A stretch of 64,000 bases of DNA, taken from Bryobacterales bacterium. Its GTDB lineage: Bacteria; Acidobacteriota; Terriglobia; Bryobacterales; Bryobacteraceae. The DNA lies in the NCBI GenBank assembly GCA_003163855.1, contig PLRJ01000236.1, forward strand, positions 6,035 to 70,034. Reading direction: 5' to 3'. The notes beneath the pieces were generated by a model, which did not search any database, was not told the origin of the DNA, and worked only from the letters and a program-made list of their open reading frames with translations. A program made the translations under genes and the position numbers. Positions 22,377-37,530 of this stretch are shown here, piece after piece (position 1 is the stretch's first letter; every line of letters starts with the position of its first letter).

Positions 22377-23825
22377 GTGAGCCTCGTTTCGCGGATCGCC
22401 CTTGCTTTGCTCTCGGCTGTTCTGTTCTGGTTTAGCTTCAATCTGAATCCACTTTGGGCCGCGGCCTGGGTCGCTCCCATTCCGCTTCTGGTAGCCGCCT
22501 ACTATTCGCGCACGCTTGTGGCCGTCTATCTCACCTGGCTTGCTGTTGGCATTGGACTAAGTTCAAACTTCACTTACTATCTGACAACCACTGGTCCCGT
22601 GGCCACCGTGCCTTTGCTCGTGCTGCAGGTTCTAGTCTGGGGTTTTTTCGTGGCACGGGCGCGCGCGGCTGTGGTTGCGTCGCGAAGTTGGTGGTGCGTC
22701 TTTGTCTATCCGCTCCTGCATGCCGCCCTCAGCACGCTGCTGTCGGCATTCTCGCCGCATGGCACTTGGGGCAGCTTCGCCTACACACAAATGGATGTCA
22801 TTCCGGTCATCCAAATCGCATCGCTGGCTGGAGCACCCGCCATCACCTTTGTCATCGCGCTATTTGCTTCTACCGTTTCTGTGGCCATTTACCGCGGGGG
22901 CAGCATCGGCCGGCCACTGCTGGCCTATGGGCTTCCCGCGCTCGTGATAGCCGGCGTACTTGGCTACGGAGAGATGCGCATTGGCACTGCTCCGCCTGGA
23001 CGCACCGTCCGTATCGGCCTGGCCTCAGTGGACGATTTTATCGGCCCTCGCATGCCCGCTCAATTGAACACTGCCGTCTGGCAGCGTTACGCCAAGATTA
23101 TCGCCGAGCTTTCAAAAGATGGCGCGCAGATCGTGGTGCTGCCGGAAAAAATCAGCCAGCTTTCGGGCGATCAGATCGCCAGCCGGAAACGGCAACTTGC
23201 CTTGCTAGCGCAGCAAAACCATGTCTATCTTGCCGCCGGTTTGCAGTTGAACCGAGGCGACCGAAAAGACAATGCACTCTGGCTTTTCAGCCCGGCCGGA
23301 GAGACGCTCAAAGAGTATCACAAACAGCACCTGGTCCCGCATTTGGAGAGCGACCTCGCACCCGGAAATGAGAATATGGTTCGAACTATCGACCATGTGC
23401 CCTTCGGACTTGCCATCTGCCGCGACCTGCTTTTCAGCGATTTTGGACGCGATTATGGCCGCCTAAACATCGCAGCCATGCTTGCGCCTGCCTGGGATTT
23501 CTATCGCGATGCCTGGATGGCTTCAAGCGTCGCCGCGCTCCGCGGGGTCGAAAGCGGTTATACTGTGGTGCGTGCGGGCCGCGAGAGCTACTTGAATGTC
23601 AGCGATCGCTATGGACGCACCATTGCGCGCAAGCGCAGCGACAATCTGCCGGGTTCCTTTCTCATCGCCAATCTGCCGCTTGGTCCCGCTGTGCCCACTT
23701 TCTACGCACTTCATGGAAATGTCTTCGGCTGGACCTGTGTGCTGCTTTCTCTGCTGTTCTTAATTAAGGGTGCAGGTCGCGCTGCCTCAAGTAAGCCAGC
23801 AGAGCGGCTGGATCGTCAGAAATGA
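22377..23825 (+). CDS. apolipoprotein N-acyltransferase-like membrane nitrilase-fold enzyme
   Basis: The 482-residue protein starts at a GTG at 22377. Residues 1-200 form about six membrane helices. A CN-hydrolase domain follows (about 210-440) with the expected triad: Glu257 in VVLPEK, Lys316 in EYHKQHLVP and Cys348 in LAICRD. A last helix lies near 450-470. This is the architecture of Lnt, which N-acylates the amino-terminal cysteine of lipoproteins. The start of the periplasmic region is less Lnt-like than usual, so it may be a second, specialised paralogue. Its 3' end overlaps the convergent GDPD gene by 62 bp. Confidence 0.85.
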   Translation: MSLVSRIALALLSAVLFWFSFNLNPLWAAAWVAPIPLLVAAYYSRTLVAVYLTWLAVGIGLSSNFTYYLTTTGPVATVPLLVLQVLVWGFFVARARAAVVASRSWWCVFVYPLLHAALSTLLSAFSPHGTWGSFAYTQMDVIPVIQIASLAGAPAITFVIALFASTVSVAIYRGGSIGRPLLAYGLPALVIAGVLGYGEMRIGTAPPGRTVRIGLASVDDFIGPRMPAQLNTAVWQRYAKIIAELSKDGAQIVVLPEKISQLSGDQIASRKRQLALLAQQNHVYLAAGLQLNRGDRKDNALWLFSPAGETLKEYHKQHLVPHLESDLAPGNENMVRTIDHVPFGLAICRDLLFSDFGRDYGRLNIAAMLAPAWDFYRDAWMASSVAALRGVESGYTVVRAGRESYLNVSDRYGRTIARKRSDNLPGSFLIANLPLGPAVPTFYALHGNVFGWTCVLLSLLFLIKGAGRAASSKPAERLDRQK

Positions 23826-24630: not shown

Positions 24631-25341
24631 ATGCGACGCGATTATCACAATTGGTACAGCACCCGGTTAGGCAGACATATGGAACTGCTGGCCTATGGTC
24701 ATGCAGGTTTTCCGGTCCTTGTCTTCCCCAGTTCGCGAGGACGTTTTCACGAATATGAGGACCACGGCATGATCCACACCCTTTCCGGCAAGATTGATGC
24801 GGGTCATCTGCAAGTTTTTTGTGTCGATAGCGTGGACGGCGAAAGCTGGTATAACAAGCGCATACATCCGCACGACCGGGTTGCCAGGCACGTGGCCTAC
24901 GAAGACTACATTTTGTATGAGGTTGTTCCACTTATCAAGGGAACCAACGGCGCCCCGACAATCAGCGTCACTGGCTGCAGCTTCGGCGGCTACCATTCGC
25001 TGAATTTCGCGCTGAAGCATCCTGACCTGGTGAGCAACTGCGTCTCCATGAGCGGCGCTTTTGACATGCGGTCGTTTATGGATGGCTATTACGACGACCT
25101 GTTCTATCTGAACAATCCCGTGGATTATGTGCCTAACTTGAGCGATCCGTGGTTTTTGGATCGCTATAAGCAGATGCGGATGGTGCTTGGCGTAGGCGAC
25201 CACGATATATGCCTGGGCGAAAATTTCAGGATGGCGGATATCCTTGGACGCAAGGGCATACCGCATTGGCTGGATGTTTGGACCGGCGGAGAGCGTCACG
25301 ATTGGCCGCTGTGGCAGCGCATGGCGCTAAAATTCTTGTGA
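24631..25341 (+). CDS. COG4947-like alpha/beta-hydrolase (esterase), first gene of the ligase operon
   Basis: The 236-residue cytoplasmic protein has the alpha/beta-hydrolase nucleophile elbow Gly-Cys-Ser-Phe-Gly-Gly (VTGCSFGGYHSLN, Ser at about 113), a candidate Asp in VLGVGDHDICL, and a His in GGERHDWPLW. The start MRRDYHNWYSTRLGRHMELLAYGH and the PSSRGRFHEYED segment are those of a small conserved family usually annotated only as 'putative esterase'. It lies 31 bp upstream of an ATP-grasp gene. It may hydrolyse an ester, thioester or amide of the product or substrate of the ligases. Confidence 0.85.
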   Translation: MRRDYHNWYSTRLGRHMELLAYGHAGFPVLVFPSSRGRFHEYEDHGMIHTLSGKIDAGHLQVFCVDSVDGESWYNKRIHPHDRVARHVAYEDYILYEVVPLIKGTNGAPTISVTGCSFGGYHSLNFALKHPDLVSNCVSMSGAFDMRSFMDGYYDDLFYLNNPVDYVPNLSDPWFLDRYKQMRMVLGVGDHDICLGENFRMADILGRKGIPHWLDVWTGGERHDWPLWQRMALKFL

Positions 25342-25372
25342 ACTCATTCGACGCGGGCGGAGGCTCATATTC

Positions 25373-26332
25373 ATGGCAAAAATAGGAATCATATACGGGA
25401 TGGAGAATACCTTCCCATCAGCCCTGGTTGACAAAATCAACGGGAAGAACGTGGCCGGCGTGACGGCGGAGCATGTCAGGCTTGGCGGCATCAAGATGGC
25501 GGAACCAAGCGGCTACCGCGTGATTGTAGACCGCATTTCCCATGACATTGAGTTCTATCGGGCTTATTTGAAGAACGCTGTGCTGGGCGGAACTATCGTC
25601 ATCAACAATCCGTTCTGGTGGAGCGCCGATGACAAATTTTTCAATTATGCGCTGGCATCAAAACTGGGTGTCGCCATACCACCCACAGTGATTCTGCCGC
25701 AGAAATCACACCCGCCTGGAACCACCGTTCAATCGATGCGCAACCTCATGTTCCCGCTCAACTGGGATGAGGTTTTTGACTACGTGAAGTTCCCCGCTTT
25801 CTTAAAACCCTACAATGGCGGGGGCTGGAAGAACGTGTTCCGCGTCACGTCGCCGGACGATTTCTTTAAAGCCTACGATGAAACCGGCACCTTGTGTATG
25901 ACGCTTCAGGCCGAAGTGAAGTTCGAAGAATACTATCGCTGCTATGTGGTCGGCCAGGAAAAGGTGCGCGTCATGAAGTACGACCCTAAACAGCCGCATC
26001 ACCTGCGCTATGTCGCCGATGGCAAAGCCAGTTCCGAGGCACTCCAGGAACGCATGGTGAACGATGCGCTTACGCTTTGCCGCGCGCTTGGCTACGATTT
26101 AAATACAGTGGAATTTGGTGTCGAAAACGGCATACCGTTTGCCATTGACTTTTTGAATCCCGCTCCCGATGCCGATGTTTATTCGGTCGGCCAGGCGAAC
26201 TTCGATTGGGTTGTGGACGCAGTTGCCGATTTGGCGATTGCTAAGGCGCTTAGCGACCAGCAAGGCAATGAGGATTATCATTGGGCGCGCTTTCTGGGCG
26301 GCAAAACTAAGTCGGCGACGGTGTCGAACTAA
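25373..26332 (+). CDS. ATP-grasp domain ligase
   Basis: The 319-residue protein starts MAKIGIIYGMENTFP and has an N-terminal Rossmann-like half. An ATP-grasp domain follows: a nucleotide-binding Lys in FPAFLKPYNGGGWKNVFRV (about residues 140-158, Lys plus a Gly-rich loop), the EVKFEEYYRCYVVG strand pair, and the metal-ligand segment FAIDFLNPAPD. The distal motif has D-x-x-N in place of the common E-x-N. ATP-grasp enzymes join a carboxylate to an amine, thiol or alcohol through an acyl phosphate. It is 9 bp upstream of the GCS2 ligase, so the two ligases are probably made together. The substrates are unknown. Confidence 0.85.
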   Translation: MAKIGIIYGMENTFPSALVDKINGKNVAGVTAEHVRLGGIKMAEPSGYRVIVDRISHDIEFYRAYLKNAVLGGTIVINNPFWWSADDKFFNYALASKLGVAIPPTVILPQKSHPPGTTVQSMRNLMFPLNWDEVFDYVKFPAFLKPYNGGGWKNVFRVTSPDDFFKAYDETGTLCMTLQAEVKFEEYYRCYVVGQEKVRVMKYDPKQPHHLRYVADGKASSEALQERMVNDALTLCRALGYDLNTVEFGVENGIPFAIDFLNPAPDADVYSVGQANFDWVVDAVADLAIAKALSDQQGNEDYHWARFLGGKTKSATVSN

Positions 26333-26341
26333 AGGCCGATT

Positions 26342-27478
26342 ATGAAACCTAGCCTGAATATTGGGATTGAGGAAGAGTACCAGACAATCGATCCGCAAAC
26401 GCGCGACTTGCGTTCGCACATCGATACCGAAATCATTTCTGAGGGCAAGCGGCAGTTGAAAGAGGCCGTAAAGGCCGAAATGCATCAATCGGTGGTGGAG
26501 GTGGGGACGGGCATTCACGCCAACGTAAAAGATGCTGCCTCGGAATTAAAAGCGTTGCGGAGCTATATCGTGAACGCGGCGAAGGCCAACAACCTTCTGG
26601 TAGCTTCGGCTGGCACCCATCCCTTCGCCGACTGGCGCAAGCAGGACATTTATCCCGATCCTCGCTACAACACCATCGTGCAGGATTTAAAAATGGTTGC
26701 GCGGGCGAACCTCATCTTTGGTCTCCATGTGCATATAGGCGTGGAGGATGAGGAAACACGCATCCACCTGATGAACGCGGCTCGTTATTTTCTGCCGCAC
26801 ATTATGGCCCTGTCAACCAACTCGCCCTTCTGGCTAGGCATGGACACGGGTTTGAAGTGTTATCGCTGCAAGGTTTTCGATAAATTCCCGCGCACCAACA
26901 TCCCCGATTATTTTCCGAGCTGGGGCGAATACGAGAACTTCATAAAGCTGCTGGTGAAAACCAATTGCATCGACAATGCGAAGAAGATATGGTGGGATAT
27001 CCGGCCGCATCCAAACTTTCCCACGCTCGAGTTTCGTATTTGCGATGTGCCGATGCGGATTGAAGAGACCATTGCCATTGTTGCGCTCATTCAAGCCACT
27101 ATTGCGAAACTGTATAAGCTGCATGCCGCGAACCAGGGCTTCCGTTTATACCGGCGCGCGTTGATTATGGAAAATAAGTGGCGCGCCGCCCGCTATGGCC
27201 TTGACGGAAAGCTGGTAGATTTCGGGAAACAGACAGAAGTTCCGGTGCGGGATTTAATCTACGAGTATCTACACTTTGTGGACGACGTAGTGGATGAGCT
27301 GGGCTCCAGGGACGAAATCAACTATATTCATCGCATTCTGGAGAATGGAACAGGCGCCGACCGCCAGTTGAAAGTTTTTCAGGAAACTAACGATCTAACA
27401 AAAGTGGTGGACTATATGGTGCAGGAAACACAGCACGGATTGAGCGAAGAGGTGCACGCAGGCGCTGGCGTCGCGTAA
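26342..27478 (+). CDS. GCS2/YbdK-type carboxylate-amine ligase
   Basis: The 378-residue protein has the glutamate-cysteine ligase family 2 signatures: NIGIEEEYQTIDP (residues 6-18), IFGLHVHIGVEDEE, STNSPFWLGMDTGLKCYR, PRTNIPDYFPSW and HPNFPTLEFRICDVPMRIEET. These enzymes use ATP to couple a gamma- or alpha-carboxylate to an amine. E. coli YbdK has weak gamma-glutamylcysteine synthetase activity, but most members have other, unknown substrates. The stop and the next start overlap as TAATG at 27476-27480. It lies between an ATP-grasp ligase and an aminopeptidase. Confidence 0.92.
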   Translation: MKPSLNIGIEEEYQTIDPQTRDLRSHIDTEIISEGKRQLKEAVKAEMHQSVVEVGTGIHANVKDAASELKALRSYIVNAAKANNLLVASAGTHPFADWRKQDIYPDPRYNTIVQDLKMVARANLIFGLHVHIGVEDEETRIHLMNAARYFLPHIMALSTNSPFWLGMDTGLKCYRCKVFDKFPRTNIPDYFPSWGEYENFIKLLVKTNCIDNAKKIWWDIRPHPNFPTLEFRICDVPMRIEETIAIVALIQATIAKLYKLHAANQGFRLYRRALIMENKWRAARYGLDGKLVDFGKQTEVPVRDLIYEYLHFVDDVVDELGSRDEINYIHRILENGTGADRQLKVFQETNDLTKVVDYMVQETQHGLSEEVHAGAGVA

Positions 27479-28497
27479 TGAGTATCGACTTGGCGGAAAT
27501 TACATTTGATCCTGAATTGGCGCAAGGCGCCTATAACGCTGTGTTTGTGTGTTTGAAGGTTCAGCCGACCGAAAAAGTGACGCTGATAACCGACCATGAG
27601 AGTGCGGAAATAGCAGCCAGTATAGTAGCGGAACTCCGGAATAATGGATGTTCGTTCCGAACTTTCATCCTGGAAGATTATGCTCCGCGGCCGCTGGTTG
27701 ACATGCCCGCGCCGGTGCTGGAAGATCTTGCATCCAGTCAGGTCAGTATCTTTGCAGTAAAGGCGCAGCCCAACGAACTGAAGACCCGCATGCAAATGTG
27801 TGATGTCGTCAACCGCAACAAAATTCGGCACGCACACATGGTGAATATCGAAAAGCACATCATGATGGAGGGCATGCGCGCCGACTTCAACCTGGTGGAT
27901 GAGTTGACGCTGCGTGTGATGAACATTGTTAACAAGGCACACGTGATTCGCGCGGTGACTAAAGCGGGCACCGATATTCGCGCTACGCTTTCGCCCGAAT
28001 TTAAATGGTTGAAGACTAGCGGCATTATCAGCCGTGACAAGTGGGGCAACCTGCCGGGCGGGGAAACCTTTACTTCACCGCTGGAAGTGAATGGAACATT
28101 CGTCGTAGACGGCGTTGTAGGCGATTACTTGTGCGCCAAGTATGGCGATCTGAAAGACACTCCGCTTACCTTGACGGTTGAAGGCAACAGACTAAGAAGC
28201 GCTAGCTGCGAAAACAAGGAACTTGAGGCCGATTTCTGGAGCTACACTCATCGCGATGCAAACAGCGACCGCGTCGGAGAGTTCGCCATTGGAACCAATC
28301 TGGCGCTGACCCGAGTGGTGGGAAACATCCTGCAGGACGAGAAAATTCCCGGTGTTCACATGGCTTTTGGCGATCCTTACGGAACTCACACAGGGGCCGA
28401 CTGGACTTCGTCAACCCACATCGATGTTGTAGGGCGCGAGTTCGATATTTGGGCCGATGAACAGCAGATTATGAAAGCCGGCAGGTTCTTGGTGTAA
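27478..28497 (+). CDS. M29-family aminopeptidase-like metalloprotein
   Basis: The 339-residue protein resembles thermophilic aminopeptidases (M29, AmpS/PepS). Candidate metal ligands are Glu in LPGGETFTSP, Glu in DRVGEFAIGTN, His in GVHMAFGDPYG, and the His/Asp pair in SSTHIDVV. It is shorter than typical M29 enzymes (about 370-410) and lacks part of the usual N-domain. In an operon with two ligases it could trim or proofread the ligated product rather than act in general protein turnover. Start ATG 27478 overlaps the ligase stop by one base. Confidence 0.82.
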   Translation: MSIDLAEITFDPELAQGAYNAVFVCLKVQPTEKVTLITDHESAEIAASIVAELRNNGCSFRTFILEDYAPRPLVDMPAPVLEDLASSQVSIFAVKAQPNELKTRMQMCDVVNRNKIRHAHMVNIEKHIMMEGMRADFNLVDELTLRVMNIVNKAHVIRAVTKAGTDIRATLSPEFKWLKTSGIISRDKWGNLPGGETFTSPLEVNGTFVVDGVVGDYLCAKYGDLKDTPLTLTVEGNRLRSASCENKELEADFWSYTHRDANSDRVGEFAIGTNLALTRVVGNILQDEKIPGVHMAFGDPYGTHTGADWTSSTHIDVVGREFDIWADEQQIMKAGRFLV

Positions 28498-28507
28498 GCT
28501 TTGCTAC

Positions 28508-29695
28508 GTGATTCCAGAACTGCGTAAAGTGTTCAATCAACGCTGGACTCCGGCTAAATACATGGAGTTCCTGTCGCTTTTAAAGCACGATGCCGCCGGC
28601 CCGATGGAGTTCCGTTGCAACGAAACTCCCCTGTTCCTGCCAAACGATCTGTTGGACAAAATGGTCCGTTACGGACAGGAACTTTATGCTCAGCTTGCCG
28701 CCGACAGCAGCTACTCCGAGCGGGCAGACGCCGCCATTCCGGCCCAATTCAAGGCGCCGAATGAAAACGCCCATCCGTTATTTGTGCAAGCCGACTTCGG
28801 TCTGGTGAGATCGCAAGACGGCAAAATAGAGCCCAAGCTGGTTGAGATTCAGGGCTTCCCTTCATTGTACGCGCTGCAGCCCAATATCGCGCGCCAATAT
28901 CGGCGCGCCTATGATATTCACGATCACTTGACCACATTTCTAAGCGGCTTGCGCGAGACCGGATACGCTGCGCTGTTGAAGAAAGCCATTGTCGGCGACC
29001 AGGATCCCTCTGAAGTCGCCCTGCTCGAGATTGATCCCTACTCACAGAAGACGCTGCCTGACTTTTTACTCACCGCAAGGCAGTTCGGAGTGCGCATCGT
29101 TGATATTACTCATGTGAAAAAAGAAGGGCGCAAGCTTTTCATCGATGGTGTCCCCATCAAACGCATCTACAACCGGGTGATTGTAGATGAACTGCTCCGG
29201 CGCGACGTGAAAGCTGGTTTTGCCTTTAGCGATGACTTGGATGTTGAGTGGGCAGGCCACCCAAACTGGTTTTTCAAGTTGAGCAAATTCTCGCTGCCCT
29301 TTTTCAAGCACGAATGCGTTCCGGAGTGCTGGTTTCTGAGCGACCTCAAGAAATTGCCGGATACTTTCCAAGATTATGTGCTTAAGCCACTCTACTCATT
29401 CGCGGGCCTTGGAGTAAAAATCAATCCTTCCAAAGAGGAGGTGGCCGCCATACCGGAAGACCAGCGGAGCCAGTATCTGATCCAGCGCAAGATGGATTTT
29501 GTTCCAACCCTTGAAACGCCCCACGGTCCCACCAAAGTGGAAATCCGCATCATGTACATTTGGGACGGCGAACAACTTAAGGCGGTAACCACACTTTTGC
29601 GTACGGGGCGCGGCAAGATGATGGGTGTTGATTTCAACAAAGGTCAGGAATGGGTGGGTGCCTCGGCCGGCTTTCATTGGAAGCCGCGAGCATAA
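28508..29695 (+). CDS. ATP-grasp-like protein, possibly circularly permuted
   Basis: The 395-residue protein starts at a GTG at 28508. An acidic segment [18 protein letters not shown] (about residues 107-124) looks like the metal-binding strand that closes an ATP-grasp active site, yet it precedes the nucleotide-binding part. That part is [17 protein letters not shown] (about 295-311, Lys plus a Gly-rich loop), with [20 protein letters not shown] and RTGRGKMMG after it. This order is that of the circularly permuted ATP-grasp / glutathionylspermidine-synthase-like group. I do not recognise the exact family. It ends the operon 10 bp after the aminopeptidase and is probably a third ligase. Confidence 0.65.
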
Positions 29696-29732: not shown

Positions 29733-31385
29733 ATGGGTGTAAGCGAAGTAGCCGGAAAGCTGGCCGACCCGGCCGAGTTGGTAAATATTCCGCGGCTGAT
29801 TGCCAACTACTACACTTTGAAGCCGGACGTAGCTCTAGCGAGTCAGCGCGTTTCGTTTGGAACGTCAGGACACCGCGGATCATCTCTGCGCGCGTCCTTC
29901 AATGAGAATCACATCCTGGCCATTACGCAAGCCATCTGCCGCTATCGCTTGCAACAGGGCACCACAGGCCCTTTGTTCCTCGCTGCTGATACCCATGCGC
30001 TGTCCGAACCCGCCTTCATGTCTGCGTTGGAGGTGCTGGCCGCCAACAACATTGAGACGATGATCGACCAGGACGGTGGCTATACGCCAACTCCTTCCTT
30101 GTCGCACGCCATCCTCAGCTATAACAAGGGGCGAACTGACTGCTTGGCGGATGGCATTGTTATTACTCCCTCGCACAATCCACCCGAGGATGGAGGTTTC
30201 AAATACAACCCGCCCACTGGAGGCCCGGCCGATACGGGCGCCACTAAGTGGATTGAGAACCTCGCAAATAGTCTGCTGGCCGATAACTTGAACGGCGTCG
30301 AGCGCATTTTGTATTCGCGCGCGCTGACCGCAGCCACCACGCATCGCTTTGATTTTGTCTCCAGCTACGTGAACGATCTGGCCGCTGTTATTGATATGGA
30401 CGCTGTGAAGGGGGCAGGCCTCAAACTCGGAGTTGACCCTCTTGGTGGCGCCGGCGTTGCTTATTGGCCGCGTATCGCTGATCGTTATGGCCTGAACCTG
30501 GAAGTTGTGAACAAGCTGGTCGATCCCACGTTTCGTTTTATGACGCTCGACTGGGACGGCAAAATTAGAATGGACTGTTCGTCGCCGTATGCGATGGCGA
30601 GCCTTATCGCGTTGAAAGACCGGTTTGATGTCGCTTTCGCCTGCGATACCGATCACGACCGGCATGGCATTGTGGCGAAAAGCGTGGGATTGCTAAATCC
30701 AAATCACTATTTGGCTGTGGCCATCGATTATCTCTTTAGCCATCGGCCCCAATGGGCTGCGGATGCTGGCATTGGCAAAACGCTGGTCAGCAGCAGCATG
30801 ATTGACCGAGTGGCGGCGGACTTGAAGAGGCGCTTGGTAGAAGTACCAGTGGGATTTAAATGGTTTGTCGATGGCCTACTAGGTGGCAGCATGGGTTTCG
30901 GCGGCGAAGAGAGTGCGGGCGCATCCTTTCTGCGGTTGCGGAGTGGTGCTTGGAGCACCGACAAAGACGGTCTAATACTCGGACTCCTCGCAGCCGAGAT
31001 CACGGCCAAGCTAGGCAAAGATCCAGGCACTCGCTACCAGGAACTGACACAGCGGTTCGGAGATCCGGTGTACGAACGCATCGACGCGCCAGCCAATGCT
31101 GAACAGAAGGCTGTTCTTGGCAAGTTGTCGCCAGAACAGGTGCCGGCAACCGAATTGGCGGGTGAAAAGATTGACGCAAAGCTTACTAAGGCGCCAGGCA
31201 ACGGTGCGCCCATCGGTGGTCTAAAAGTCGTGACAAAGAACGGGTGGTTCGCGGCCCGGCCTTCCGGCACGGAAGACGTTTACAAGATATACGCGGAGAG
31301 CTTTCTTGGCACCCCGCACCTGCGACGGATTCAGGAAGAAGCTCGTAAGGTCATTTCAGAAACGTTTCAAGCGGCCGGAGCGTGA
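29733..31385 (+). CDS. pgm: alpha-D-glucose phosphate-specific phosphoglucomutase
   Basis: I choose the ATG at 29733 after an AGGGGGAG site; the frame is open back to 29625 but would add a tail inside the previous gene. The product (550 residues, the usual length for this type) has [11 protein letters not shown], the phosphoserine loop [12 protein letters not shown] (Ser147), the metal-binding CDTDHDRHG, and the sugar-binding [13 protein letters not shown] phosphate-binding [14 protein letters not shown] closes the protein. It interconverts glucose-1- and glucose-6-phosphate and so supplies nucleotide sugars for the polysaccharide locus downstream. It follows the ligase operon by 37 bp. Confidence 0.95.
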
Positions 31386-34621: not shown

Positions 34622-35206
34622 ATGTCGCCGGTAGAAAACACAGGAAACGTGAATAATACAATCCCTAAACATCTCTCGTGGTTTGCGGTCCAGGTAACTC
34701 CTGGCAAAGAGAAGCAGGTTTCGGATAACTTGCAAATGAAAGGTTATAAGTGCCTTTTACCCATCCAACAGACTAGAAGGCATACCTCCTATGGCGTGAA
34801 AGAAGTAAAGGCGCCTCTCTTCGCTGGCTATTTGTTTTGCCTGCTCGATCTGGCCGACAACCGCATGCCAATGCTGACTACTCCGCATGTGCGCAATCTG
34901 GTCAGCTTCGGAGGAAAACCGACCCCTCTAAGAGAGACGGAGGTTAAGATTATCCAGCGCGTGGTCGACACGGGAGTTGTTGCACAGAGTTGGCCCTATC
35001 TCAGAGAGGGTAATCCGGTCGAGCTCGTCTCAGGTCCACTTGCAGGTTTGCGCGGCCTTCTTGTCTCCGTTAAGGAGGACTCGCATTTAGTGGTAGCCAT
35101 CGAAATGCTGCAGCGCTCAATTGCAGTCAAAATCCATCCTGAGTGCGTCAGTCTGCCGTTGGAAAAAGGGTGTTCGCAAATGCTTTCTTCAAGGCCGAGA
35201 GCGTAG
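34622..35206 (+). CDS. NusG-paralogue antiterminator (UpxY/RfaH-like) of the polysaccharide locus
   Basis: The 194-residue protein opens with a NusG N-terminal domain (HLSWFAVQVTPGKEKQVSDNLQMKGYKCLLP) with the hydrophobic contact surface to RNA polymerase, GYLFCLLD, and ends in a KOW domain (GNPVELVSGPLAGLRGLLVSV). Such specialised paralogues (UpxY in Bacteroides, RfaH in enterobacteria) load on polymerase near the start of long polysaccharide operons and suppress Rho termination. Its place as first gene of a ~29-kb locus fits this exactly. It should act on nascent transcription in the cytoplasm. Confidence 0.92.
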   Translation: MSPVENTGNVNNTIPKHLSWFAVQVTPGKEKQVSDNLQMKGYKCLLPIQQTRRHTSYGVKEVKAPLFAGYLFCLLDLADNRMPMLTTPHVRNLVSFGGKPTPLRETEVKIIQRVVDTGVVAQSWPYLREGNPVELVSGPLAGLRGLLVSVKEDSHLVVAIEMLQRSIAVKIHPECVSLPLEKGCSQMLSSRPRA

Positions 35207-35223
35207 TCAACTCCATAAACATA

Positions 35224-37530
35224 ATGTCCAATCTGCGCATAGACAAAGTACCTCCTTCACCGACAACGCTGGAGTTGAAGCCCCGCACTGTGGGCGCGAA
35301 TACGAGTGTTTACGTTCCCGTGCCCTATAATCGCCCCGTCCAACAGGGTTCAGGGAGTATCATTCTTGAGTTTTGGCAGACCGTCAAACGTTACCGCAAA
35401 TTGATTCTCGCTTTAGCCCTTGTCGGCTTTGCTATCAGCGGGATTGTGACGCTATTCCAGACGCCGACGTATCGCGCTTTTGCTCTGCTGGAGATCCAAA
35501 GTCTAAACGAAGATTTCCTGGATATAAAGTCGGTTGATCCGAACGCATCCGGCGGCCAATATCCGGTTGAGAGCACGGTCCAGACCCAGATCAAAATCAT
35601 ACAATCGCAACCGATAATGATTCGTAGCCTTGATCGGATGAATCTTTACACGGCCAAACGAGAATCGCAGACCGACACCGTTATTCAGGGGTTACTGGCG
35701 AAAGTTGGTTGGATGAAGCCTTCCCAAATTCCCTCAAAGTCACTGGTTCCAGCGGCAGAGGATTCGGTTCGAGTCAGACCTATTGGACCCACCCGGATTA
35801 TCGAGGTCACCGCAGACTCTCCCGATCCGTTCGTCGCGACACTGTATGTGAATACAATCGCCGACGAATATATTGCTCAGACGGCCGCGGCCAGAAACAT
35901 TAGTAGTGAGAAGACCAGCGTATGGCTGCGCTCGCAGTTGGAAGAACTGCGCCTTCGCCTGGAACAAGCGGAAAACAACCTCGAATCGTATGCGAGGCAG
36001 TCGAACCTGCTATTCCCGGAGAGCAGCGATGCATCCACAGGTCCAAGTGTTGAGCAGCAAAGAATGGCTCAATTGCAGGAAGAACTTTCGAAGGCGGAGG
36101 CAGACAGGGTAGCCAAACAATCGAACTATGAGCAGAGCCAGTCGCAGGATCCTGATGCGCTTCCGCCTGTGCTCGACAACGGTCCTATTCGCGATTACCA
36201 GTTGAAGCTGGCGGATCTTAAACGCCAGCGTGCTGAGCTTGAGGCTACCCTGAAGCCCGGCCACCCAAAGGTTATGCGCGTACAGCAGCAGATTGACGAT
36301 CTGCAAGCCACAATCGATCACGAAAGATCGAATGTGCTGGCTCGCATGCGGAACGAATACGATTCCGCCAAGCGCCGCGAAGACCTGCTCAAGTCGGCCT
36401 ATCAGTCGGAGTCTTCCATTGTCGGAGGTCAGGAAGCGAAGAGAGTACGTTACGACACTTTGAAGAGGGAAGTCGACTCAGATCGTCAACTGTTTGAGGC
36501 AATGCTGCGAAAGGTGAAGGAAGCCGATTTTGCGAAAGCACTGCAAGCCAGCAGCGTCCGTATCGTGAATCCGGCCTTGATTCCGAAGGAACCGGTCACG
36601 CCAAAAATACCATTGAATCTTGGCCTTGGTTCTGCCCTAGGCCTCTTTTTCGGAATTGGCTTGGCTATTTTCAAGGAAAACTCTAATCGGCCGCTTCGTT
36701 CTCCCGGGCAGTCTGCCGCTGAGCTGCAAACACGAGAGCTGGGAGTAATTCCGAGGCTGCTGGCCAGCCAACTTCCCGAGGCCACCAATCTTGCAGCGAG
36801 TGCCGTTAATCCTCCTACGCTAGTTAAATCGCCGGTGTTTGGCCTTCCGGCCATACCAAAGACGAGGCCCGGCAGCACTTTCGTAAGCGAATCGTTCCGC
36901 AGCGTCCTGCAGTCGATAATGTTTGCTTCCCAACAGGGCAAACCGACCAGGCTAATAACCATAACGAGCCCGGAGCCGGGTGATGGCAAAACGATGATTG
37001 CTAGCAATCTGGCCATGGCAATGTCAGAACTTCGCCAAACCGTCTTACTGATCGACTGTGATATGCGCCGGCCCCGCTTGCACAAAGTGTTCAACATACC
37101 GAATGGCCCTGGCATCAGCGACCTTCTGGAAGATGGTCAAGCAAAGGACACGGGCTTGTTGACCCGAGCCTTGCGTGAAACTCGCTTCCCGGGATTGGCC
37201 GTGATTCCCAGTGGCGAGCCGGGTGAAAGTATCCCCTATCTCCTGAATTCTGATCGTCTAAACCACCTGTTGCAATCGTTCCGTGAGCAATTCGACATGG
37301 TGATCATAGATTCCCCTCCGATGTTATTCAGTCCCGACGCTCGAATCCTTGGCAAGAACTCAGACGGCGTGCTCTTGGTAGTGCGCGCCGGAAAAACTTC
37401 TTCCTCTGTAGCTCATTCCGCAAGGGAATGTCTGGCCGAGGACAACATTTCTCTCATTGGAACGGTTCTGAACGATTGGAATGCGAGTGAGAGCAAGAGC
37501 TACAAATCGTATAAACAGTACTATTCCTAA
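35224..37530 (+). CDS. polysaccharide co-polymerase / BY-type tyrosine autokinase (Wzz-Wzc like)
   Basis: The ATG at 35224 lies 18 bp after the NusG-like stop; an earlier in-frame ATG at 35143 would overlap it by 64 bp. The product is about 768 residues. It has a first membrane helix (KLILALALVGFAISGIVTLF), a Wzz domain with long coiled coils (about 270-430), a second helix (LNLGLGSALGLFFGIGLAIF), and a cytoplasmic BY-kinase. The kinase has Walker A SPEPGDGKTMIA, Walker A' LLIDCDMRRP and Walker B VIIDSPP. The C-terminal tail (SKSYKSYKQYYS) is the tyrosine cluster that is autophosphorylated. It controls chain length and export of the polymer. Confidence 0.95.
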   Translation: MSNLRIDKVPPSPTTLELKPRTVGANTSVYVPVPYNRPVQQGSGSIILEFWQTVKRYRKLILALALVGFAISGIVTLFQTPTYRAFALLEIQSLNEDFLDIKSVDPNASGGQYPVESTVQTQIKIIQSQPIMIRSLDRMNLYTAKRESQTDTVIQGLLAKVGWMKPSQIPSKSLVPAAEDSVRVRPIGPTRIIEVTADSPDPFVATLYVNTIADEYIAQTAAARNISSEKTSVWLRSQLEELRLRLEQAENNLESYARQSNLLFPESSDASTGPSVEQQRMAQLQEELSKAEADRVAKQSNYEQSQSQDPDALPPVLDNGPIRDYQLKLADLKRQRAELEATLKPGHPKVMRVQQQIDDLQATIDHERSNVLARMRNEYDSAKRREDLLKSAYQSESSIVGGQEAKRVRYDTLKREVDSDRQLFEAMLRKVKEADFAKALQASSVRIVNPALIPKEPVTPKIPLNLGLGSALGLFFGIGLAIFKENSNRPLRSPGQSAAELQTRELGVIPRLLASQLPEATNLAASAVNPPTLVKSPVFGLPAIPKTRPGSTFVSESFRSVLQSIMFASQQGKPTRLITITSPEPGDGKTMIASNLAMAMSELRQTVLLIDCDMRRPRLHKVFNIPNGPGISDLLEDGQAKDTGLLTRALRETRFPGLAVIPSGEPGESIPYLLNSDRLNHLLQSFREQFDMVIIDSPPMLFSPDARILGKNSDGVLLVVRAGKTSSSVAHSARECLAEDNISLIGTVLNDWNASESKSYKSYKQYYS

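Follow-up and report, generated by a model that had tools for sequence, protein, structure and literature searches.

Five closely spaced genes for predicted ligases and hydrolases

We analysed a 64,000-nucleotide stretch of DNA (the window) from contig PLRJ01000236.1 of a Bryobacterales bacterium, whose 6.3 Mb draft genome is 89% complete. Between positions 24631 and 29695 the window carries five open reading frames (ORFs), g1 to g5, all on the plus strand and separated by 31, 9, −1 and 10 bp (Table 1). They comprise three carboxylate ligases of distinct types (g2, g3 and g5), an esterase-like protein (g1) and a metallopeptidase-like protein (g4), and our data support the view that the five constitute a functional unit that has been conserved. 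With at least two ATP-dependent ligases and a peptidase, in an order conserved across phyla, the cluster belongs to the general kind of amidoligase–peptidase operons. Consensus scans for promoters and terminators returned fewer sites than in shuffled sequence. No precursor-peptide gene for a graspetide or other ribosomally synthesized and post-translationally modified peptide lies within the operon, where the gaps are at most 31 bp; the search did not extend to distant precursors. A plasmid search with g2 gave no matches.

Table 1. Genes of the cluster and the gene that follows it in the window
Gene	Position	Strand	Length (aa)	Assignment
g1	24631..25341	+	236	PF00756 Esterase (2.9e-12), alpha/beta-hydrolase
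g2	25373..26332	+	319	Predicted ATP-grasp ligase, D-Ala-D-Ala ligase/LysX/RimK fold
g3	26342..27478	+	378	GCS2/YbdK-type carboxylate-amine ligase (NCBIfam PRK13515)
g4	27478..28497	+	339	M29-type metallo-(amino)peptidase-like
g5	28508..29695 (GTG start)	+	395	Predicted permuted ATP-grasp ligase, glutathione synthetase/YgiC/GspS fold
pgm	29733..31385 (likely start)	+		Phosphoglucomutase, TIGR01132 (919 bits over the ORF opening at 29625)

Three ligases of different design

Neither g2 nor g5 belongs to a Pfam family. In NCBIfam, g5 has no match and g2 matches the RimK family weakly (1.1e-5), far under the cut-off; since both resources fail to place it, g2 was assigned to no named subfamily. The structure model of g2 resembles D-Ala-D-Ala ligase, LysX and RimK (top PDB matches from E 2.1e-14), and residues K145, R189, E247, D259, N262 and D266 are invariant among 108 homologues. 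Judged by the model, g2 is predicted to be a standard ATP-grasp enzyme with its ATP- and Mg-binding residues intact. The assignment of g3 comes directly from profiles: it matches GCS2 (PF04107, 6.9e-60) and the PRK13515 carboxylate-amine ligases (548 bits against a cut-off of 371), a family whose name describes the chemistry only. It also matches the YbdK structure 1r8g (3e-63), and its GhExE metal/ATP signature (G8-I-E10-E-E12) is invariant in 84 homologues.

Sequence-only searches of the PDB gave nothing usable for g5, and the weak matches that would make it a relative of a ‘DNA primase’ were judged to be chance. An AlphaFold2 model built from 55 homologues reached a mean predicted local distance difference test (pLDDT) score of 95.5, and its PDB matches are the glutathione synthetases of yeast, human and plants, E. 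coli YgiC and YjfC, and glutathionylspermidine synthetase. The Foldseek E-values of these matches run from 1.3e-16 to 1e-9 and then fall off sharply, with TM-scores of 0.46–0.63 and identities of 11–16%. At the sequence level the match to YgiC is weak but collinear, and family membership is indicated only by a sub-threshold PF03738 match in one relative (L118, E 0.0048). Residues E113, Q115, R219, K293, E345, R347 and R365, which include the motifs E113-x-Q115 and E345-x-R347, are invariant in 75 homologues. We therefore predict with high confidence that g5 is a permuted ATP-grasp enzyme of the glutathione synthetase/YgiC fold. A preliminary description of the window, made from the letters alone, had read the same five genes as an operon and proposed three ATP-dependent carboxylate ligases of different design, the last of them ‘probably permuted ATP-grasp-like’; its spacings agree exactly with the ORF list, the profile of g3 and the fold matches of g2 and g5 bear out the three ligases, and the structure prediction confirms its reading of g5.

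Several related loci deviate in their ligase content. In some Acidobacteriota (L040:10368-11567, L041 and L076) a fourth ligase, another ATP-grasp enzyme (PF13535), comes directly or almost directly after g5. At L117 a circularly permuted ATP-grasp type 2 protein (PF14403, L117:11011-12372) lies between g2 and g3, and g5 was not found in that genome. A distant g2 subfamily, scoring 135–166 bits in open frames of 415–476 aa, is present in some Acidobacteriota (G118:C1:101739-102578, G092, G305 and others). An apparent 986-aa fusion of g5 at L106 has a translation that runs across unresolved (X) residues, and it likely stems from faulty assembly.

Two putative hydrolases

The putative catalytic triad of g1, S117, D192 and H223, is kept in 64, 65 and 66 of 67 homologues, respectively, and the protein has no obvious signal peptide. 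A second PF00756 esterase lies next to the cluster in 25 of 100 related loci, in most cases upstream of g1 and in divergent orientation (L038, L040, L041, L048, L082, L105, L108, L121 and others); the copy that was read (L038) has an apparent signal peptide and would be secreted.

The Peptidase_M29 match of g4 (PF02073, 2.6e-12, 46.7 bits against a cut-off of 27) covers residues 146–306 only, and g4 can be aligned to AmpS (1zjc) as far as residue 302. Six residues are invariant in 66 homologues, namely E196, E268, H294, H314 and D316, which by comparison with the family are putative dimetal ligands, and Y301, assigned in the same way. NicX, an M29-like dioxygenase, shows that the fold also supports other chemistry. 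As NicX has F at the position of E196 while the g4 homologues keep all putative ligands, g4 looks like a dimetal hydrolase.

The gene set recurs across phyla

Scanning the g2 alignment against 84,980 species genomes gave at least 587 confirmed stretches. The best 80 of these include Acidobacteriota, Verrucomicrobiota (Opitutia), Bacteroidota, Ignavibacteriota, Chlorobiota, Calditrichota and Cloacimonadota; genome-neighbourhood comparison thus finds the set in at least seven phyla, which settles the concern in the preliminary description that the five genes might co-occur only here. Across 100 related loci the commonest genes are the five families themselves, present in 94, 75, 66, 61 and 59 loci, with the next family in 25, so the grouping is not due to chance. 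Genomes of the same family as the window place g5 after g3 and g4 almost invariably, the verrucomicrobial loci L105 and L108 have the identical order g1-g2-g3-g4-g5, and an arrangement in which g2 and g3 are followed by g4 or another hydrolase (see below) and then g5 returns in further lineages. Some lineages are without g4, g5 or g1, or carry these elsewhere in the genome. The neighbours of solitary g5 genes share no common partner. In G057 the gene after g5, on the same strand, belongs to the adenosine-deaminase family (L043:3444-4517).

The coupling extends beyond linkage. Among 247 Acidobacteriota, 66 genomes have a g2 orthologue and 30 have g5; of these 30, 28 also carry g2 (odds ratio 66, p 1.6e-16). 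In about 12 of these 28, g2 and g5 lie over 30 kb from each other or on separate contigs, and the association is therefore no by-product of adjacency. Among g2-bearing genomes mostly from other phyla, 23 of 26 have g5. Likewise, g3 occurs in 29 of the 38 genomes in which g2 stands without g5, compared with 2 of 20 lacking g2. Pairwise protein distances of the five proteins correlate (r 0.81–0.90), and none of 999 permutations gave values as high.

Two unrelated protein types share the putative hydrolase slot

Where g4 is missing, its slot is often filled by a glutamine-amidotransferase-like (GATase1-like) thiol protein. Loci L043, L147 and L148 read g2-g3-thiol protein-g5, L118 reads g2-thiol protein-g5 and L103 reads g2-g3-thiol protein. 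The Cys-His-Glu triad of class-I glutamine amidotransferases is invariant in six divergent copies of the protein, one of two tested copies was recognised by Pfam as GATase, and solitary copies, like solitary g5, have no common neighbour. Genome-wide, 57 carriers comprise 25 with a g4 orthologue and 23 with the thiol protein, including one with both, and 10 with neither; this exclusivity has a Fisher p of 3e-7, a value that ignores shared ancestry. Two species of one genus illustrate the exchange: G226 has esterase-g1-g2-g3-g4-g5 (L145), and G166 has the same block minus g4 (L146) with a thiol-protein gene about 2.5 kb beyond g1. On the g5 tree at least four changes of hydrolase state are needed, of which the starred branches alone force three. 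At L129 a Peptidase_M42 gene adjoins the thiol-protein gene.

The simplest inference is that g4 and the thiol protein do the same job, in which case their shared chemistry would be hydrolysis of an amide, for example a (γ-)glutamyl or N-terminal peptide bond. A natural swap between a metal-dependent and a thiol enzyme at one step would narrow the chemistry to amide hydrolysis and offers a direct genetic test. The hydrolases that the preliminary description regarded as built in do belong to the conserved unit, as g1 and g4, yet the M29 enzyme is not a fixed part of it, since roughly half of the tested carriers have the thiol protein in its stead.

Comparison with known systems

Neighbourhoods of ligases and peptidases are an established predicted kind of system (PMC2588565; PMC4431377). 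The predicted amidoligase–peptidase operons resemble the cluster in joining unrelated carboxylate ligases and peptidases in conserved neighbourhoods, and those with a glutamine synthetase (GS)-fold ligase beside a GATase-like thiol peptidase were predicted to make peptide metabolites (PMC2588565). In the literature searched, the five-gene set, its distribution and the M29/GATase1-like exchange were not described, although a 2009 survey (doi 10.1039/b917682a) outside the search could hold part of this. As far as checked, there is no earlier description of the distribution, of the coupling between unlinked genes or of the hydrolase exchange, whereas the general kind of operon is already known.

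The preliminary description had also left room for a known glutathione or ergothioneine route, and neither matches. The cluster shares with glutathione biosynthesis the γ-glutamyl ligase family GCS2 (g3) and the eukaryotic-type glutathione synthetase fold (g5), but g5 lies outside the glutathione synthetase sequence families and the cluster adds a third ligase and two hydrolases. GshB (PF02955) has no match in this genome, at its 89% completeness and with the profile matching in 9 of 14 controls. The resemblance to the EgtA–EgtE system of ergothioneine is one of logic, with a GCS2-class ligase and a hydrolase that may remove glutamate from a transient γ-glutamyl handle. Unlike that system, the cluster is without egtB and egtD; egtD lies on another contig of this genome and reaches its cut-off in only 9 of the 19 carriers searched.

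The N-acetylglutaminylglutamine amide (NAGGN) operon (PA3459–PA3461) also unites ligase genes and an aminopeptidase gene, there for a dipeptide. Its peptidase belongs to family M42 and thus differs from M29, it shares no ligase family with the cluster above cut-off, and NAGGN synthetase (TIGR03103) is over the cut-off in none of 19 carriers. Neither an ergothioneine nor a NAGGN identity is supported by these data. The Anbu operon (permuted ATP-grasp, alphaE, transglutaminase and Anbu; PMC6376114) likewise pairs a glutathione-synthetase-like ATP-grasp protein with a hydrolase, but alphaE, transglutaminase and Anbu are absent from the five genes and from the recurrent neighbours identified. An anti-phage role found no support: a PADLOC search with all five proteins gave no defence-family match.

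A proposed pathway and its alternatives

The gene unit, the folds, the intact catalytic positions, the genome-wide coupling and the hydrolase exchange suggest a route independent of ribosome and tRNA, in which successive ATP-driven amide ligations would build a small peptide-like metabolite and the hydrolase is interchangeable. The substrates and the order of steps are part of the proposal, to which we give an even chance of being correct. By analogy with the enzyme families, the ligated product is probably of γ-glutamyl type. In this scheme g3 would phosphorylate a carboxylate, most likely the γ-carboxyl of glutamate, and join it to an amine to give γ-Glu-X; g5 would then couple the free carboxylate of γ-Glu-X to a second amine, and g2 would attach a further amino acid. 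The M29-like g4, or the thiol protein in other lineages, would cleave one amide, either stripping a transient (γ-)glutamyl group or recycling the product. The least certain step is that of g1, which might take off an ester or thioester group. Ergothioneine biosynthesis offers a precedent, where the γ-glutamylcysteine ligase EgtA is combined with EgtC, a glutamine-amidotransferase-type enzyme that removes the glutamyl part (PMC10805701). More tentatively, the product could be a nonribosomal peptide not described before, serving as cofactor, solute or signal in at least seven phyla, whose hydrolytic step was filled several times by a metal-dependent or a cysteine-type enzyme.

Several observations weigh against a peptide-building route of this kind. 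G276 and L141 retain g1-g2 only and other genomes have g2-g3 without g5; because of such partial sets, not all five genes can be needed for every function. About 10 of the 57 carriers have neither hydrolase, the g5 tree forces only three to four switches, and the p-value for the exclusivity of the two hydrolases takes no account of shared ancestry. The distance correlations may in part be due to vertical inheritance, and glutamate as the donor of g3 is assumed from its family.

The same genes could instead make a compatible solute or storage peptide, with the ligases producing an osmolyte or a store of nitrogen that g4 or the thiol protein would break down once it is in surplus. The NAGGN operon, with asnO, a GNAT-family synthetase and a glutamyl aminopeptidase, has this design (PMC8070244), a swap between non-homologous hydrolases would fit a simple degradative step, and the Peptidase_M42 gene at L129 points the same way. 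We nevertheless consider this unlikely, as the 100 loci show no conserved osmotic regulator or transporter beside the cluster, NAGGN synthetase falls short of its cut-off in all carriers examined, and the hydrolase gene sits mid-operon, flanked by two ligase genes.

Modification of proteins is still less probable. Here the ligases would put amino acids on a protein, to be taken off again by g4 or the thiol protein, as in glutamylation by RimK or in the pairing of Pup ligase and depupylase. The RimK/LysX fold of g2 would suit such a role, and the GS fold of g3 also gave rise to the Pup ligase PafA (PMC2588565), but three different ligases exceed the needs of known single-residue tagging, g5 resembles enzymes acting on small peptides, and no gene for a small tag or target protein is conserved beside the cluster in the 100 loci.

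A new glutathione-type low-molecular-weight thiol, for which g3 would make γ-Glu-Cys, g5 would add the third residue and g1 would act like S-formylglutathione hydrolase (also PF00756), is very improbable: the combination of GCS2 with a glutathione synthetase fold follows glutathione logic, GshB is missing here, and BshC is missing in three Verrucomicrobiota carriers and G130, but the bacillithiol gene bshC is present in 29 of 33 carriers, this genome among them, where a thiol is thus probably present already and a glutathione substitute is not needed, egtD is found here as well, and cysteine as the acceptor has no sequence support.

The ligation route to a small peptide-like metabolite would, given a unit in at least 587 g2-bearing stretches and in abundant soil bacteria, imply a common and overlooked compound. 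The carriers include major soil and freshwater lineages, and if the proposal is true its product would be common to at least seven phyla. Bryocella elongata and Silvibacterium bohemicum are among the carriers in culture, which put it within reach of metabolomics.

Neighbouring genes

The phosphoglucomutase gene pgm, whose start was picked by homologue alignment, begins about 37 bp past g5 on the same strand. It adjoins g5 in most loci of this genus only and not in other families; it is probably co-transcribed with the cluster in this genus and lies outside the conserved core. Upstream of the cluster (22377–23825), one protein combines the N-terminal domain of apolipoprotein N-acyltransferase with a CN_hydrolase domain. 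Farther downstream, at 34622–37530, a NusG/RfaH-like protein is followed by a Wzc-like tyrosine kinase/chain-length protein, and from this reading of the sequence the region is likely the start of an exopolysaccharide cluster.

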